Shown: in pieces, positions 5,259-33,545 of the stretch
How the letters are laid out: every line of letters starts with the position of its first letter
How positions within the stretch are numbered: position 1 is the first letter of the stretch
Origin: Haladaptatus halobius
GTDB lineage: Archaea; Halobacteriota; Halobacteria; Halobacteriales; Haladaptataceae
Length of the DNA: 64,000 nt
NCBI RefSeq assembly: GCF_020618475.1
Contig: NZ_CP085335.1
Location: forward strand, 744,001 to 808,000
Direction of reading: 5' to 3'
The notes under the pieces: model-generated
The model's input: the letters and a program-made list of their open reading frames with translations, nothing else
Database searches by the model: none
Told to the model about the DNA's origin: nothing
Made by a program: the position numbers and the translations under genes

Positions 5259-5703
5259 GCGTTAGATTCTCTCAAGCTTCACCTAAGTCGATACGCCCCG
5301 CATGGGGAGCCATTGAAGGCGGCGACCGTCGCGTTTCGGAACGGACGCGACTCGCCGATACGGGTGAATCGACTCGACATCCGGCGCACCACCCCGTCGC
5401 TGTCGTCGAATAGGCGGAATAGCTAACCCTGTTCACGAGGTACTGTTGCACGCTACGAGCGTCACGGGGTATCACTCCGTGACGGAGTCACGACTCGACT
5501 TGGGGGTGTGTCAGTCATGAGTAAACGGGAGGAGAGAATGTCGAGAACTGAATCGCCGAGACGACCGTTCGCCGAACGCGGCGATTCAGTTCGCTCGCTC
5601 GCCGACTTCGAGCCGGCAAGGGAAAGCGGTGCGTGTCACCGCTCGATGCCGGTCGGGACTCGAACGACGTTCCGACCCTGTTCGAGGGGAGGGTGGTCGA
5701 ACG
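5259..5703. other. Gene-poor interval with alternating GTCACGG/CCGTGAC arms
   Basis: I see no convincing gene here. The AT-rich start (5259-5290) should hold the promoter of the leftward acyl-CoA synthetase. At 5461-5492 three related arms follow each other: GTCACGG (5461-5467), CCGTGAC (5477-5483) and GTCACG (5487-5492). Two mutually exclusive hairpins could form. A short frame from ATG 5517 to 5711 reaches into the next gene but has no recognisable content. Confidence 0.4.
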
Positions 5704-7225
5704 GTGAGTAGATCCGAACTGTCGGAACTCACCGAGCCGGTGAGCGAGCGCGACCACGTCAGGGGCCCGGATGACGCCGCCGTGACGCTCGTCCAGTACG
5801 GGAACTTCGAGTGTCCCTCTTGCGGCGACATGTTTCCCGTCCTGAAGCGGATTCGAGACCGCCTCGGCAATCAACTTCGGTTCGCCTTCCGTCACTTCCC
5901 GCTGGCGCAGAGTCACCCCCACGCACAGCAGGCGGCCGAGGCCGCCGAGGCCGCTGCGGCGCAGGGGGCGTTCTGGCGGATGCAAGACCTGCTCTACGAG
6001 AACCAGCGCGCGCTCACCCGCGACGACCTCGTGGACTACGCCGCGGAGCTGGGACTCGATACGGAGCAGCTCGAGCGCGAATTGGCGGAGGGCGTCCACG
6101 AAGAGCGCGTTCACGAAGATTTTTTCGAGCGGCATGCGAAGCGGCGTCAACGGAACCCCCACGTTCTTCATCAACGGCGAGCGCTACGACGGCTTGCTGG
6201 AGTTCGAACCACTGTTGTTGGCGCTAGCGGACGCGGGCGGTATCGCCGAGATGCAGGTGTCGGTTCGCCGCGACAACGTCGAACTCCGGGACACCATCGA
6301 CCGCTCGGAGCGGGGCGCGCCGGCGGCGGGGCAGGCGCTCCACGACCTGTTCTCTGCCGACGAGATATTCCAGCGAATCACCGCGACCGCCGACGAGGAG
6401 GTCAACCAGAGCGCCCGACTCCTGTTTTTCAACGGTCTCGCCGCGGGGTTGGTCATCACGCTGTCTTTTTTCGCGCGGTCGGTCATCGCCGCAGCAGTTC
6501 CGCAAGACCCCACGAACCTCCTCGCCAGTTTGGCGTACCCTATCGGGTTTGTCTTCATCGTCCTGGGTCGCTCGCAGCTCTACACCGAGAACACGCTGAC
6601 CCCCGTCACGCTCGTGCTGACTCGAATCGTCAGCGTTCCGATCCTCCTTCGCGTCTGGGGAATCGTACTGTTCGCGAACGTCCTCGGGGCGGCCATCGGC
6701 GCGTACCTGTTGGCGACGACCGGCGTCTTCGACCCCGGCGTCGGGGACGTCGCCGGAGAGTTCGGCGAGCACGCGCTCTCGGTGGGATGGTCGGCGCTCT
6801 TCTAGAAGGGCGTGTTCGCGGGGTGGCTGGTCGCCGGAATGGTCTGGCTCACGCACGCCGCGCGGGATACGATTACGCGATTCTTCCTGGTCTACGTCAT
6901 CATGTTCCTCATCCCCGCCGGGGGACTCTTCCACTGCATCATCGGTGCGTGCGAGGTGTTCTACCTCGTCTTCCGGGGAAGCGTGGAGTTCACGGGCGCG
7001 TTCTTTCAGTTCTTCGTCCCCGTGTTGCTCGGGAACACGGTCGGCGGCGTCGTGCTGGTGGCGCTGTTGGTGTACGGGATGACGGCCGACCGTCGGTTCC
7101 CGAACCGGAACTACCGTCAGCTAGAACTCTCGTGGTTCGAATGGTTGTTCGGTCGGCACACCGGCCAGCCGCGAACCGTCTCGTCGAGGGACGCGTCCGC
7201 CGACTCCGAGGAGTCGACGCCGTGA
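5704..7225 (+). pseudogene. DsbA-like thioredoxin fused to formate/nitrite transporter, interrupted twice
   Basis: From the GTG at 5704 the frame gives a DsbA-type domain: a leader with ERDHVRGPDDAAVTLV, the active site FECPSCGDMF (CxxC), and a helical insert. At 6120-6125 a run of six T breaks the frame. With five T the protein continues as SSGMRSGVNGTPTFFINGE (cis-Pro loop). A formate/nitrite-transporter domain of about six helices then follows, with FNGLAAGLVITLSFF, LGRSQLYTENTLTPV and GGLFHCIIGACEV. An in-frame TAG at 6803-6805 splits the transporter, and the frame resumes to TGA at 7223-7225. The N-terminal part, the middle (6134-6805) and the tail (from 6806) are each clearly coding. 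Either the gene has decayed or the two lesions are sequence errors. Confidence 0.82.
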
Positions 7226-7246
7226 GTACGGACGCGCCTCTCGTCC

Positions 7247-8554: not shown

Positions 8555-8603
8555 AGCCGCGCCGAGACGAGCCGCCGGATTTGTCTGGTCATAATCGAAA
8601 AAA

Positions 8604-8633: not shown

Positions 8634-9287
8634 ATGCGGTACGTCAAGTTCGTTCTCATCCCCGACGACGGTGGGCTTCACCCGATCGACAAAGCGTTCG
8701 CGTCGGAACCGTCGCTCAACCGGCAGTTCATCCACGAGATATCGCTACTCAACGACAGGACGGCGATCACGATCTATCAGCTATCCGGTGACGCCGACGT
8801 GGTCGAGGATATCCTCGCCGACCACGACGAGGTGGTGATGTCGCACGTCTCACAGCCGCGGGACAGCGTCCACGTCTACGTCCAGTTCGAGCCGAACGAC
8901 GTCATCGAGACCTTGCTGGAGATTCCGCGCGAGTACGAACTCATCGTCGACACGCCGCTGGAGTTCACCGACCGCGGCGGACTCCGACTCACGGTCGTCG
9001 GCGAAGAGAAGAAGGTTCGACGGGCCATCCCCGAACTTCCCACATCGCTCCGCCCGAAGTTGGAACAGACCGGGGATTACAAACCGCAGAACGAACGGCT
9101 CTTTTCCGTGCTCACCGAGCGCCAGCAGGAGATACTAAGGACGGCGGTGGAACTGGGCTACTACTCGGTTCCGCGTCGCGTGACTCACGAGGATCTGGCC
9201 AGCGAACTCGACTGCTCTCCGAGCAACGTGGGCGAACTCCTCCGCAAGGTCGAGTCGACCATCCTCACCGAGGTAACGCCCCGCTGA
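8634..9287 (+). CDS. HTH_10 (bacterio-opsin activator type) regulator
   Basis: Predicted protein of 217 aa. The first 150 residues form the alpha/beta sensor-like domain common in this haloarchaeal family (starting MRYVKFVLIPDD). The C-terminus carries the HTH_10 signature: LTERQQEILRTAVELGYY, RRVTHEDLASELDCSPSNVG, and a dimer helix ELLRKVESTIL. The family acts as DNA-binding transcription regulators. Targets here are unknown. The leaderless promoter fixes the start. A broken paralogue of similar design lies at 30775-31461. Confidence 0.88.
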   Translation: MRYVKFVLIPDDGGLHPIDKAFASEPSLNRQFIHEISLLNDRTAITIYQLSGDADVVEDILADHDEVVMSHVSQPRDSVHVYVQFEPNDVIETLLEIPREYELIVDTPLEFTDRGGLRLTVVGEEKKVRRAIPELPTSLRPKLEQTGDYKPQNERLFSVLTERQQEILRTAVELGYYSVPRRVTHEDLASELDCSPSNVGELLRKVESTILTEVTPR

Positions 9288-25880: not shown

Positions 25881-27250
25881 ATGGTCGTCCGACTCCTACA
25901 GTACGCCGACGTGGAGAACACGTACGATTCTCCCCAGCGAATTGGTCGACTCGCCGGCTGTATCAAAGAGTTGCGCGACGAGCGAACGCTCGTCTGTGGG
26001 GCCGGCGACGACACCGGCCCCGGCGTCCTCTCGCTCGTCACCGAGGGGAGACAGTCGCTCCCGTTCTTCGACACCGTCTCGCCCACCTTCGAGACGTTCG
26101 GCAACCACGACTTCGACCACGGGTTCGACGCGATCCGCGAGATAGTTCGGAGATCGCCGCAACGATGGATCGCCGCGAACGTCGAACGAAACGGAGCGCA
26201 GTTCGCCGCGGATGACACCGCCCCGACCGCGCTGGTCGAACGCGGCGGCCACCGAGTTGGATTCGTCGGCGTGACCGCTCCCGAAACGCCGGATATCAAT
26301 CCCGCCGCGGAGGAAATGACGGTTCTCGACCCGAAGCCGGTCGTCCGCGAGGCGACGGCGAGCCTCCGCGACTGGGGTGCCGACTACGTCGTCGTCGTCT
26401 CGCACTGCGGCGACGACACCGAACTCGCGGAACTCGACGTCGACGTGGTTCTCGGCGGTCACGAGCACGAGGAGCGAATCGAGCACGTAGACGGAACGCT
26501 TCTCACTCGACCGGGCGACCTCGGATGAACCCTGCTCGAAGTGGAACTCGGCGAAGGACGCCCGACCCCGACGCACCACGACACCGGAGATGCGACGCCC
26601 GACACGGACGTGGTCGCCGCCCTCCGAGACCTGATGGACGAAACCGGCCTGACCGAGGTGGTCGGGTCACTCGACGAACCGATACTTCGACACGACCGCA
26701 CCCGGAAAGCCGGCGAGAGTCGCCTCGGTAATCTCGTCGTCGACGCTCACCGCTGGCGCGCCGACGCCGACGTCGCCCTCTCGCTCGGAGGAATCCGTCC
26801 GGGCGACCCATTAGAAGGTGCCGTCACGGCCGCCCACCTCGTCGGGGTGATGCCCTACGGCAACGACCTCCTCGTGGTCGAACTCCCGGGCGAGCGTCTC
26901 GCTGAAGCGTTCAGGAAACTTTCGCTGTCGTACCAGTTTCCCGACTCGCCGCGGTACATGTTCGGTCACGTCTCGGGCGCGACCGTGACGTGGGACGACC
27001 GCCACGATACGTTATCGGAGGCGACCGTCGACGATCGACCACTCGACTGCGAGAGGCGGTACGAAGTCGCCGTCTCGGAGTACTTCGTGGAAGCGGACAA
27101 CCTTTTCACGGCGTTCGACCGCGACGCCGCGATTCGAACCTGCGGAACCGTCCCGACGCGCTGGTCGAGTACGCCCGCGAGCGCGGACTCACCCCGACCG
27201 TCGACGGCCGCATCCGACGACCGCACTTTGACCCGCCGACGGTTCGCTGA
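25881..27250 (+). pseudogene. 5'-nucleotidase/metallophosphoesterase (UshA-like), interrupted
   Basis: The N-terminal part (214 aa) is a calcineurin-like metallophosphoesterase: LQYADVENTYDSP (where family members have DxH), ETFGNHDFDHGFDAI (GNHD), VVVVSHCGDD and VVLGGHEHE (GHxH). An in-frame TGA at 26525-26527 stops it. The same frame resumes with TLLEVELGEGRP and a 5'-nucleotidase C-terminal domain (GNLVVDAHRWRADADVALS, GVMPYGNDLLVVELPG). A frameshift near 27140 then shifts to the frame ending DALVEYARERGLTPTVDGR and stopping at 27250. It would have hydrolysed nucleotides or UDP-sugars. No signal peptide is visible, so a cytoplasmic role was likely. Confidence 0.82.
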
Positions 27251-29596: not shown

Positions 29597-29710
29597 ATGT
29601 CTATCGATTACTTCGAATCTCGGTCTATCGACCAACTTCTGAGTGCCATATACGCGACTAACACACGTACCCGACCGGACGCAAAAACCGAACACAGCAC
29701 GCGCCCATGA
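29597..29710 (+). CDS. Candidate 37-codon upstream ORF of the TFB gene
   Basis: ATG 29597 opens a 37-codon frame (MSIDYFESRSIDQLLSAIY...) ending in TGA at 29708-29710, which overlaps the TFB start as ATGA. A TATA-like GACTTAAGTAG at 29567-29577 lies about 25 bp before this ATG, exactly right for a leaderless message. Third-position GC is only about half, so coding is not assured. A second TATA-like CCATATAC (29646-29653) could serve TFB directly. A regulatory leader peptide is inference. Confidence 0.4.
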   Translation: MSIDYFESRSIDQLLSAIYATNTRTRPDAKTEHSTRP

Positions 29711-30681
29711 CTGATACACGCACCCGAACGAACGACGAAACTGAGACCAGCGACGAGCGAACGGAAGAGCGAGCCGACGAGCGACAGCGTTGCCCTGAAT
29801 GCGGTGGCCCGCTCGTGACCGATGAGGAGCGAGGGGAGCGAGTGTGCGCCGACTGCGGACTGGTCGTCGAAGAGGACGCCGTCGACCGCGGTCCGGAGTG
29901 GCGCGCCTTCGACGCGGCCGAACGCGAACAGAAGTCCCGCGTCGGTGCGCCGACGACGACGATGATGCACGACAAGGGACTGTCGACCAACATCGACTGG
30001 CGCGACAAGGACGCCTACGGGAACTCGCTGGGGTCGCGCCAGCGCGAGAAGATGCAGCGCCTGCGGAAGTGGAATGAGCGGTTCCGCACGCGCGACTCGA
30101 AAGAGCGCAACTTGAAACAGGCGCTGGGCGAGATCGACCGGATGGCGAGCGCGCTCGGCCTGCCGGACAACGTCCGCGAGATGGCCAGCGTCATCTACCG
30201 CCGGGCGCTCGACGAGAACCTCCTCCCAGGACGCTCCATCGAGGGCGTTGCGACCGGGGCGCTCTACGCCGCCGCCCGACAGGCGCGAACGCCGCGCAGT
30301 CTGGACGAACTCACCGCCGTCTCGCGCGTCGAGAAGGACGAGATAGCCCGCACTTACCGATACGTCGCCCGCGAACTCGGCCTCGAAATCGAACCGGCCG
30401 ACCCGAAGAGCTACGTCCCGCGGTTCGCCTCGGAACTCGACCTCTCGGACGAGACCGAGCGCCGCGCCCGGTCGTTGCTCGATTCGGCGATCAAACAGGG
30501 GCTCCACAGCGGCAAATCGCCGGTCGGTCTGGCCGCCGCCGCGGTCTACGCCGCCGCCCTCCTCACGAACGAGAAGGTGACCCAGAGCGAGGTGAGCGAG
30601 GTGGCGAGCATCAGCGAGGTCACCATCCGCAACCGCTACCACGAACTGCTCGACGCCGAAGAGGGAACCGTCGCGCCGTAG
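29707..30681 (+). CDS. tfb: Transcription initiation factor IIB (TFB)
   Basis: Predicted protein of 324 aa. It recruits RNA polymerase to the TBP-TATA complex. N-terminal zinc ribbon with Cys29, Cys32, Cys47 and Cys50 (RCPECGG ... VCADCG); B-finger region RGPEWRAFDAAEREQKSRVG; then two cyclin folds (about 120-215 and 220-320), including AAARQARTPRSLDEL and KSPVGLAAAAVYAAALL. Haloarchaea have several TFB paralogues with partly distinct promoters, and this is one of them. Confidence 0.95.
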   Translation: MTDTRTRTNDETETSDERTEERADERQRCPECGGPLVTDEERGERVCADCGLVVEEDAVDRGPEWRAFDAAEREQKSRVGAPTTTMMHDKGLSTNIDWRDKDAYGNSLGSRQREKMQRLRKWNERFRTRDSKERNLKQALGEIDRMASALGLPDNVREMASVIYRRALDENLLPGRSIEGVATGALYAAARQARTPRSLDELTAVSRVEKDEIARTYRYVARELGLEIEPADPKSYVPRFASELDLSDETERRARSLLDSAIKQGLHSGKSPVGLAAAAVYAAALLTNEKVTQSEVSEVASISEVTIRNRYHELLDAEEGTVAP

Positions 30682-30774
30682 CGACCGTCCCGCTTTTTCC
30701 ACGTCGCGAGAAGACCACTTCGACGCGACCTCGACGCGGCGTAAATCCGATACCGCGCACCGACTCCAAACCCC

Positions 30775-31461
30775 TTATTCCGACACCGCGTCCGACTCCG
30801 CTCGTAACACCGTTTCTAGAAGCTTCGCCTCGCCTTTTTGGAGGTGTTCGGAGCGCTGCCCAGTCGTTCGGCCACGTCCTCGTGCGTGGCTCTCCGCGGG
30901 TGGTCGTAGTACCCGAGTTCGAGAGCGGCCAGTACGGCCTCGCGCTGGCGTTCGCTGAGCGTCGAAACGGGCGACTCCCGACCGACGTCGGACTCGCCGA
31001 CGGCGTGGATATCGACGTCGACGCTCGGCGGGAGGTCGGCGACCACGGACTGGAGGACGGATGCGGTTCCGACGATGCACGCGTGTACTCGTCCGTCCCG
31101 GTAGACGATGGCCGTCCCGGTAGACGATGGGCTTGACGACGACGAGATCCAGCCTGGTCAACACCGGAAAAACGGCTCGCATCAGCGGTATCTCCGAGAC
31201 TCGAAATCGAACGAGCAAGTAGAAGCGGTCGTCCGTAATCCGACTGATGACGGCGTCGATGACGCCCGAAACGTCGGCCAGGCCGCCCCGAATCCGTTCG
31301 ACGTCGCCGTCGATCTCGAACAGGATGGTCGCGGAGTCGCTGTCGGCCAGATTCCAGTCACACAGGCGCGTCTCGGTCACGTGCGAGCCCCCGGCCCACA
31401 ACGAAAAGACGCGGGGTACTCGTTCCGGTTCCGGCGTCCCCGTCAGCCGGAGATATTTCAT
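30775..31461 (-). pseudogene. HTH_10 regulator with 19-bp duplication and second frameshift
   Basis: From ATG 31461 the N-terminal sensor part reads normally (MKYLRLTGTPEPERVPRVFS ... LTRLDLVVVKPIVYRDG). A 19-bp tandem duplication at 31093-31130 throws the frame. Deleting one copy restores the frame giving GRVHACIVGTASVLQSM and the HTH_10 motif LSERQREAVLAALELGYYDHP, RRATHEDVAERLGSAPN. Near 30850 a second indel returns the frame to EHLQKGEAKLLETVL and the stop at 30775. The present frame has no internal stop, so a full-length protein with a scrambled middle (about 115-200) and no HTH could be made. It is divergent from a broken ABC gene. Confidence 0.8.
31093..31130. repeat. Perfect 19-bp tandem duplication
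   Basis: The unit CCGTCCCGGTAGACGATGG occurs at 31093-31111 and again at 31112-31130. It lies inside the HTH_10 gene. Because 19 is not a multiple of three it explains the frameshift exactly. Confidence 0.95.
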
Positions 31462-31546
31462 ACGGTGAGGGTGTCGAGGCGTCGGTATAAACCCCCCGGC
31501 TATACCCGTCAGAAGGAGTATCGGAGATTCGCTCTTTTGTTTTCGT

Positions 31547-32336
31547 ATGGAAGCAGACGAAGCGCGTTCGATACGCATCGACGGCCTCAGGCGCGAATTC
31601 GGGGCCATCACCGCGCTCGACGGGGTGACCCTCGACATCGAGGAGCCACAGATAGTCGGCGTCGCCGGTCCGAACGGGTCGGGAAAGACGACGCTCATTC
31701 GCACCTTGCTCGGAACCCTCCTACCCACTTCCGGGTCGGTCGAGGTCAACGGCATCGACCCGCTGTCGTTCACAGGGACTGATCGCGCGCGACTCGGCTA
31801 CATGCCCCAGAACGAGACGGTGTATCCGGATCTCATGGTTCGAGAGAACGTCACCTTCTTCGCCCGACTCTACGGCGTCGAGAACGTGGCGGACGCGGTC
31901 GACCGAGTGCTCGGATTCGTCGACCTCTCCGGTCGCCGAAACTCGCTCGTCGGCGACCTCTCGGGCGGGATGGGTTCGACGGACGAATCTCGCCTGCGCG
32001 GTCGTCCATCGACCGAACCTGCTGTTTCTGGACGAACTGACGGTCGGTCTCGACCCGCAACTCCGGGCGTCCATGTGGGAGGGATTTCGGGAACGGCGCG
32101 ACCGCGGTACCCTCATCGTCGTCTCGACTCACTACCTCGGCGAAGCGCGGCACTGCGACCGCGTCCTCTTCCTGCGCGACGGTCGGGTGCTCGCGTTCGA
32201 CGCACCTGAATCGTTTCTCGAAGCGACCGGAACCAAAACGCTGGACGACGCGTTTCTCGCGCTTCTCGACCGCAACGCCGCGAACGAATCCGTCGGCGAA
32301 GACCAAGAGTCCGCGGGCGAGGAGGTGGCGTCGTGA
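31547..32336 (+). pseudogene. ABC transporter ATP-binding protein, frameshifted
   Basis: ATPase subunit of an ABC-2 exporter. First frame from ATG 31547: Walker A GVAGPNGSGKTTLIRTLLG, Q-loop LGYMPQNETVYPDL, signature LVGDLSGGM. At 31972-31974 an extra G in a GGG run breaks the frame. With two G it reads SGGMVRRTNLACAVVHRPN and runs on through Walker B LLFLDELTVGLDP, the H-loop VSTHYLGEARHCDRV, to TGA at 32334-32336. The permease start overlaps this stop. As written the ATPase would lack Walker B and be inactive. One base decides between pseudogene and sequencing error. Confidence 0.85.
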
Positions 32337-33004
32337 ACGGCGCGGTCACGGTTTCGCGCCGCCTTCTGCTGGCGCTCAGGAGCGACCGACGAACCTTCGG
32401 TCTCGTGCTCGTCGTGCCCGCGTTCATCATCTACCTGCTCAGCGAAGCCTTCCCTCGTCCGGAACCCGTCGCGCCGATACTGCTCGCCGTCTTCGTCTTC
32501 TTCCTCACGTACCTCCTCACCGCCGTCGGCTTTCTCCGCGAACAGACCGCCGGAACCTTGGAATGCATCCTCGTCTCGCCGATTTCGAGGGGTGAACTCG
32601 TCCTCGGGTACGTCGTCGGATTCGGTCTCCTCGCCGCCGTCCAGTCGGTCGTACTGCTGGGTGCCAGCGTCTACTTCCTCGACGTGGAGTTCGCCCACGG
32701 CGTCGGTCTCTTTTTCCTCCTCTCCCTGTTCGCCGAGAACGAGTTTCAAGCCCTCCAGTTCATCCCGGTGGTCATCGCGCCGCAGGTCATCCTCGGCGGG
32801 ACGTTCAGACCGGTCGAGGAACTCCCGATATTTCTCGAACTTCCCGCGCGAGCGATGCCCATCACCTACCTTGTCGACGAAATGGAGTACGTCGTCATCG
32901 ACCGCGGAAGCGTCGAAGATGCGTGGCTGGCGATGGGCGTCCTCGCCGTCCTGACGACCCTTTCGATAGCGACCGCGGCCGTGGCAGTTCGACGAGCGGA
33001 TTGA
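32333..33004 (+). CDS. ABC-2 type permease
   Basis: Predicted protein of 223 aa with about five to six membrane helices. Typical features: FLREQTAGTLECILVSPISRGELVLGY (the ABC-2 coupling segment), then FAENEFQALQFIPVVIAPQVILGGTF and MPITYLVDEMEYVVIDR. It is shorter than usual, and the join GLFFLLSLFAENEFQ suggests that one helix of about 20 residues is missing. The GTG start overlaps the stop of its (frameshifted) ATPase, so it probably lost function with it. Cargo unknown. Confidence 0.8.
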   Translation: MNGAVTVSRRLLLALRSDRRTFGLVLVVPAFIIYLLSEAFPRPEPVAPILLAVFVFFLTYLLTAVGFLREQTAGTLECILVSPISRGELVLGYVVGFGLLAAVQSVVLLGASVYFLDVEFAHGVGLFFLLSLFAENEFQALQFIPVVIAPQVILGGTFRPVEELPIFLELPARAMPITYLVDEMEYVVIDRGSVEDAWLAMGVLAVLTTLSIATAAVAVRRAD

Positions 33005-33062
33005 ACCCGCGGTTCACCCGCTAGACCGTAAGCAGCAAGTACCGCCTTCCCGCCGTTCCACC

Positions 33063-33545
33063 ATGGAGACGACGCGACACTTCACGGCGACGACGTACGT
33101 CGTCCACGACGGCGACTGTCTGCTCCACCAACACGACCGACTCGGCATGTGGCTCCCTCCGGGCGGTCACCTCGACCGCGACGAACTTCCCCGCGAGGCC
33201 GCCCTGCGGGAACTCCGCGAGGAGACGGGGTTGGACGCGACCCTCCTCGAACCGGAGACGGACGTGTCCGCCAAATTCGGGCGGGAACTCTCGCCCGCCG
33301 AGCGCACCATGCTCTACGACATCGATACCGCGGACGGTGAGGTAGCCCACCAGCACGTCGACTTCGTCTACTACGCCGAAGCGTCGAACCGAACTCTCTC
33401 GCCTGACGACGGCGAGGCGAAGGCCGGCGAGTGGCGGTGGTTCTCCCCCGACGAACTGCGCGACCGGGGCGGGCTGACCGAGGAGGTCACGACGCTCGGA
33501 ATCGAGGCCATCGAGCGCGTCGAATCCGCTCGACCCGGTGATTAA
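33063..33545 (+). CDS. Nudix hydrolase
   Basis: Predicted protein of 160 aa. The Nudix box is complete: GGHLDRDELPREAALRELRE followed by ETGLD, matching GX5EX7REUXEEXGU, at about residues 37-60. Nudix enzymes cleave nucleoside-diphosphate-X bonds with Mg2+. The substrate is not predictable. The N-terminus TTRHFTATTYVVHDGDCLLH is the usual first strand. Standalone gene. Confidence 0.9.
   Translation: METTRHFTATTYVVHDGDCLLHQHDRLGMWLPPGGHLDRDELPREAALRELREETGLDATLLEPETDVSAKFGRELSPAERTMLYDIDTADGEVAHQHVDFVYYAEASNRTLSPDDGEAKAGEWRWFSPDELRDRGGLTEEVTTLGIEAIERVESARPGD

Follow-up and report, generated by a model that had tools for sequence, protein, structure and literature searches.

The closest described relatives of the gene considered here are HTH_10 regulators with an HVO_0513_N domain (PF04967 + PF24278). 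Both domains were carried by all four homologues that were scanned; a literature search on HVO_0513 found no papers. Pseudogenes are known to form when a short segment is duplicated in tandem or when sequence between two short repeats is deleted. In the window, that is, the whole 64-kb stretch of DNA that was analysed, pieces of one gene matched both profiles in the same order as in these regulators, but the HVO_0513_N and HTH_10 domains fell in different reading frames, and the HTH was split again near its end. This gene lies in a 2.4-kb block together with the genes of an ABC exporter (Table 1). In our judgement the regulator-exporter block, itself probably acquired, is decaying through small insertions and deletions, one of which is a 19-bp tandem duplication (probability roughly 0.86).

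Table 1. Positions in the window of the regulator-exporter block, its flanks and its lesions
Feature	Position	Strand	Remarks and basis
TFB gene, left flank	29707-30681	+	Open; common to sister species
Block of regulator and ABC exporter, 2.4 kb	30682-33062		Between the TFB and Nudix genes
Putative pseudogene of an HVO_0513_N/HTH_10 regulator	30775-31461	-	228-codon open frame with scrambled middle; frames, profiles, homologues
Middle piece in the other frame	30819-31112	-	End of HVO_0513_N and HTH_10 positions 1-41 of 53; profile and tblastn
10-nt word read in both frames	30843-30852	-	About 13 bp short of homologue spacing; frame returns
Exact 19-bp tandem duplication	31093-31130		Copies 31093-31111 and 31112-31130; shifts regulator frame
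Putative pseudogene of an ABC transporter ATPase	31547-32336	+	Extra base in G run 31972-31974; DEPT changed to DELT
ABC-2 type permease gene	32333-33004	+	Near 32720, 15 residues (45 bp) missing in frame; comparison with relatives
Nudix hydrolase gene, right flank	33063-33545	+	Open; next to TFB in five sister genomes

The open frame and the perfect 19-bp repeat named in a preliminary description of the locus were both found at the positions given in Table 1: the frame has 228 codons counted from the ATG, and the two copies of the repeat are identical. A GTG at 31773 lengthens the regulator frame upstream of the ATG at 31461. Compared with the Pfam profiles, the 228-codon frame matched HVO_0513_N over profile positions 8-96 of 134 (37.9 bits, family cut-off 29.8). 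This was its sole match at 0.1 or better, HTH_10 being absent. The piece 31112-30819, read in the other frame, matched HTH_10 at 6.8e-12 over the positions listed in Table 1, and also HVO_0513_N positions 97-133 with 21.3 bits, a score that alone lies under the family cut-off. The remaining frames after the duplication (two pieces, one of them in the frame of the ORF) gave no Pfam family at 0.1. The first frame of the minus strand is made up of the N-terminus up to the duplication and of the C-terminal EHLQKGEAKLLETVL, and the piece between them belongs to the other frame. The misread stretch after the duplication comprises about 85 of the 228 codons, slightly above one third, and contains most of the HTH, in agreement with the earlier statement that the middle third and the DNA-binding helices are read in the wrong frame. 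It had also been proposed that removal of one copy brings the HTH-bearing segment into frame with the N-terminus; this frame analysis is supported by the profile matches and by the homologues described below. Elsewhere in the window, a plus-strand open frame (8634-9287), downstream of a gene that by eye is SDR-like, encodes a product that ends, likewise as judged by eye, in an HTH_10-like segment.

Homologues of the N-terminal part of the regulator were found in 42 of 79 genomes, the own genome counted. Fifteen full-length homologues were read, 14 from other genomes and one, L003, a paralogue in the own genome. They were taken from the better matches and the block-bearing loci; weaker matches and the second copy in L087 were left out. 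All fifteen are single open reading frames of 215-235 amino acids, in which the YRDG-type motif occurs once and the HTH end is continuous. When the other-frame piece was used in tblastn, it matched 11 of the 12 loci first searched with 40-61% identity; the twelfth, L051, is without a regulator. The homologues agree with the other frame in the middle and with the first frame at both ends. The preliminary description had named homologues with a middle region like the uncorrected frame as evidence against its interpretation, and the middles matched the other frame instead. Judged against these intact homologues, the changes in the regulator gene appear disabling, and the gene is probably a pseudogene.

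The absence of a stop codon in the scrambled gene, which had been presented as a notable feature, turned out to be unremarkable. The corresponding shifted frame was stop-free in 7 of the 15 homologues (over 87-89 codons). Since these stay open too, an open shifted frame is a property of GC-rich coding sequence and not a sign of selection. The same comparison bears on the idea that the scrambled gene encodes a new functional protein, in which a compensated double frameshift has joined the HVO_0513_N sensor part to an arginine-rich tail. In favour of this idea, no stop interrupts the 228 codons, both ends are kept in their frame, and inspection by eye shows an arginine-rich tail. However, the shifted frame contained 10-35 arginines in each of the 15 homologues, and with the lack of stops in seven of them both features follow from GC-rich coding. 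Moreover, the scrambled middle occurred in none of the 15 homologues read, and the adjoining genes are broken. We regard such a new protein as very improbable, and equally so the version in which it is expressed and was retained after the exporter under its control had been lost. If this interpretation were true, the arginine-rich tail would be unusual for a halophile. Taken as a decaying regulator gene, the locus offers a caution for GC-rich genomes: a full-length open frame may conceal a disabled gene, as illustrated by the seven homologues that would stay open.

The 19-bp duplication is the longest exact tandem duplication of the window (periods 10-60 scanned), and its 38-bp double unit was found only once when the whole 7.28-Mb assembly was searched. 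When the window was simulated 40 times with a first-order Markov model (periods 8-60), exact tandem periods reached 11 bp at most, and chance therefore does not explain the duplication. The preliminary description offered a choice between a recent loss and a reversible slip-strand switch, in which gain and loss of a 19-bp copy would turn the regulator off and on. Exact tandem duplications can revert by slippage, and here both copies are still identical. However, there are only two copies, and none of the 15 homologous regulator genes read contains any exact tandem duplication when periods of 8-60 bp are scanned. Furthermore, a single slip would fail to restore an intact protein: in the single-copy state the other frame still meets a stop at 30816-30818, and because of the second indel HTH_10 is cut at position 41 of 53. 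Since the one-copy HTH stays truncated and the divergent exporter genes are damaged as well, a switch is most unlikely. The part of the choice that stands is the loss, which is supported by the match of the homologues to the corrected frames.

The second, frame-restoring indel predicted near 30850 was located at the 10-nt word listed in Table 1, after which the C-terminal EHLQKGEAKLLETVL is again in the first frame. Duplication and second indel add up to a net gain of 6 bp, and the reading frame therefore returns. A deletion of about 13 bp between two copies of the word would explain why the spacing is shorter than in the homologues. In the homologues the two corresponding 10-nt words agree at only 2-7 of 10 positions (n = 15), and this comparison gave no support to the HTH_10 motif as a general slippage hotspot.

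Damage was also found in the two exporter genes. Compared with all ten relatives, the ATPase gene has one extra base in its G run, right after the LSGG motif (LSGGM), and its DEPT motif is altered. The ATPase frame is open in 9 of the 10 relatives; L088 has a stop of its own. In the permease, 15 residues of a hydrophobic stretch are gone, which are present in all ten relatives. As to L088 (G277), the stop in its ATPase gene (match from 3830) comes after 81 codons, and the closely similar copy in L089 is open; the L088 copy may be decaying as well.

Errors of sequencing or assembly were considered as a source of the indels. The lesion in the ATPase gene, an extra G in a G run, is of a typical error type, and the assembly, which consists of 9 contigs and with 7.28 Mb is large for a haloarchaeon, has an estimated contamination of 9.51%. 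However, homopolymer errors do not take the form of an exact 19-bp duplication or of losses of about 13 bp and 45 bp. The window compared with the sister genome G007 served as a control (54,816 alignment columns in 16 pieces, the codon phase being tested strictly on either side of an indel cluster). Among 46 clusters with non-triplet indels two carried the codon phase through, one at 8568, after a stop codon, and one at 6125, inside a gene; the strict test may overlook short, slowly evolving or weakly periodic genes, the cluster at 27153 being a doubtful case. All four lesions are located in one 2.4-kb block, as against one in-gene, phase-carrying indel by the strict test in the 54,816 columns elsewhere, with the qualification that the relatives used to judge the block were more distant than the one used for the control region. 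Three frame-breaking indels and a 45-bp loss within 2.4 kb exceed what was seen in the flanks, a contrast that speaks against assembly noise of a general kind. We therefore consider error an improbable explanation of the four lesions together, although any single one of them may be an assembly error.

The control indel at 6125 is situated in a gene for a fusion of a thioredoxin (DsbA-like) and a formate-nitrite transporter (5689-7234), in which a T run at about 6125 carries a frameshift and an in-frame stop follows further on. Its counterpart in G007 is open over 515 codons (L099:6514-8058). The fusion gene of the window is likely a second pseudogene. As at least this one gene outside the block is broken too, decay in the window extends beyond the block.

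The block is absent from the TFB-Nudix site in five of the eight same-genus genomes, where the flanks are 40-72 bp apart. In the sister G007 the gap is 40 bp, compared with 2.4 kb in the window, and the TFB side has 92% DNA identity; in G006, G008, G005 and G002 the gap is 60-72 bp. In the other three (G004, G003 and G001) the TFB gene is followed by other sequence, and neither the block nor the Nudix gene was matched within the 11-12 kb read. The genus search also hit the own genome at several other TFB-like places. The permease was found, at an E value of 1e-30, in none of the eight same-genus genomes and in 10 of 391 other genomes of the order that were examined, which are a sample of a larger group. 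The carriers include Halapricum hydrolyticum, Haloferax denitrificans, Haloferax sulfurifontis and four Halobacteriales MAGs, and intact copies of the block are present in other haloarchaeal families. A divergent regulator is located beside the permease in 7 of the 10 carriers; in the other three the ATPase and the permease stand alone within the 10 kb read.

The patchy presence of the block and the empty site in sister genomes favour a gain in the own lineage over many losses. The composition of the block is not foreign (63.7% GC, compared with 63.5% for the window) and therefore lends no support to a recent transfer. No clear terminal or inverted repeat was seen at the junctions 30682 and 33062, either by eye or among the repeats listed, which comprised 20 of the 32 direct families and 25 of the 48 inverted pairs. 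Matches to the permease were found in 92 plasmid records, all with under 60% identity and one covering at least 80% of the query; no haloarchaeal plasmid was among the 20 of these records that were listed. From the distribution we infer that the block was, quite likely, gained laterally from another haloarchaeal lineage.

The present state of the locus is best explained as follows. A three-gene block, made up of an ABC-2 exporter and an HTH_10 regulator divergent from it, was probably gained from another haloarchaeal lineage; in the own genome its function has probably been lost, and it is decaying, with at least four indels. The 19-bp duplication, most likely a result of replication slippage, moved the last part of the sensor domain and the greater part of the HTH into the wrong frame; the last HTH residues were brought back by a second event, in which about 13 bp were lost at the short word. 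In the exporter genes, the extra G in the ATPase shifts the frame past the signature motif, and the permease has lost 45 bp that encode a hydrophobic stretch. A protein made from the regulator frame, if there is one, would have no working DNA-binding domain, and the exporter would be without a complete ATPase. The cassette appears to be seen between gain and loss, and its significance beyond annotation is small.

The cassettes of Halapricum hydrolyticum (L085/L103) and of the MAG QS_8_69_26 (L048/L104) have the three genes of the window, arranged divergently as they are there. In the seven genomes that have this arrangement all three frames are open, whereas the block in the window has at least four indels. 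What the locus shares with pseudogenes formed by the two known routes named at the outset is the 19-bp tandem duplication and, at the deletion, the 10-nt word common to both frames; otherwise the case is unexceptional, and the probable gene decay here is ordinary.
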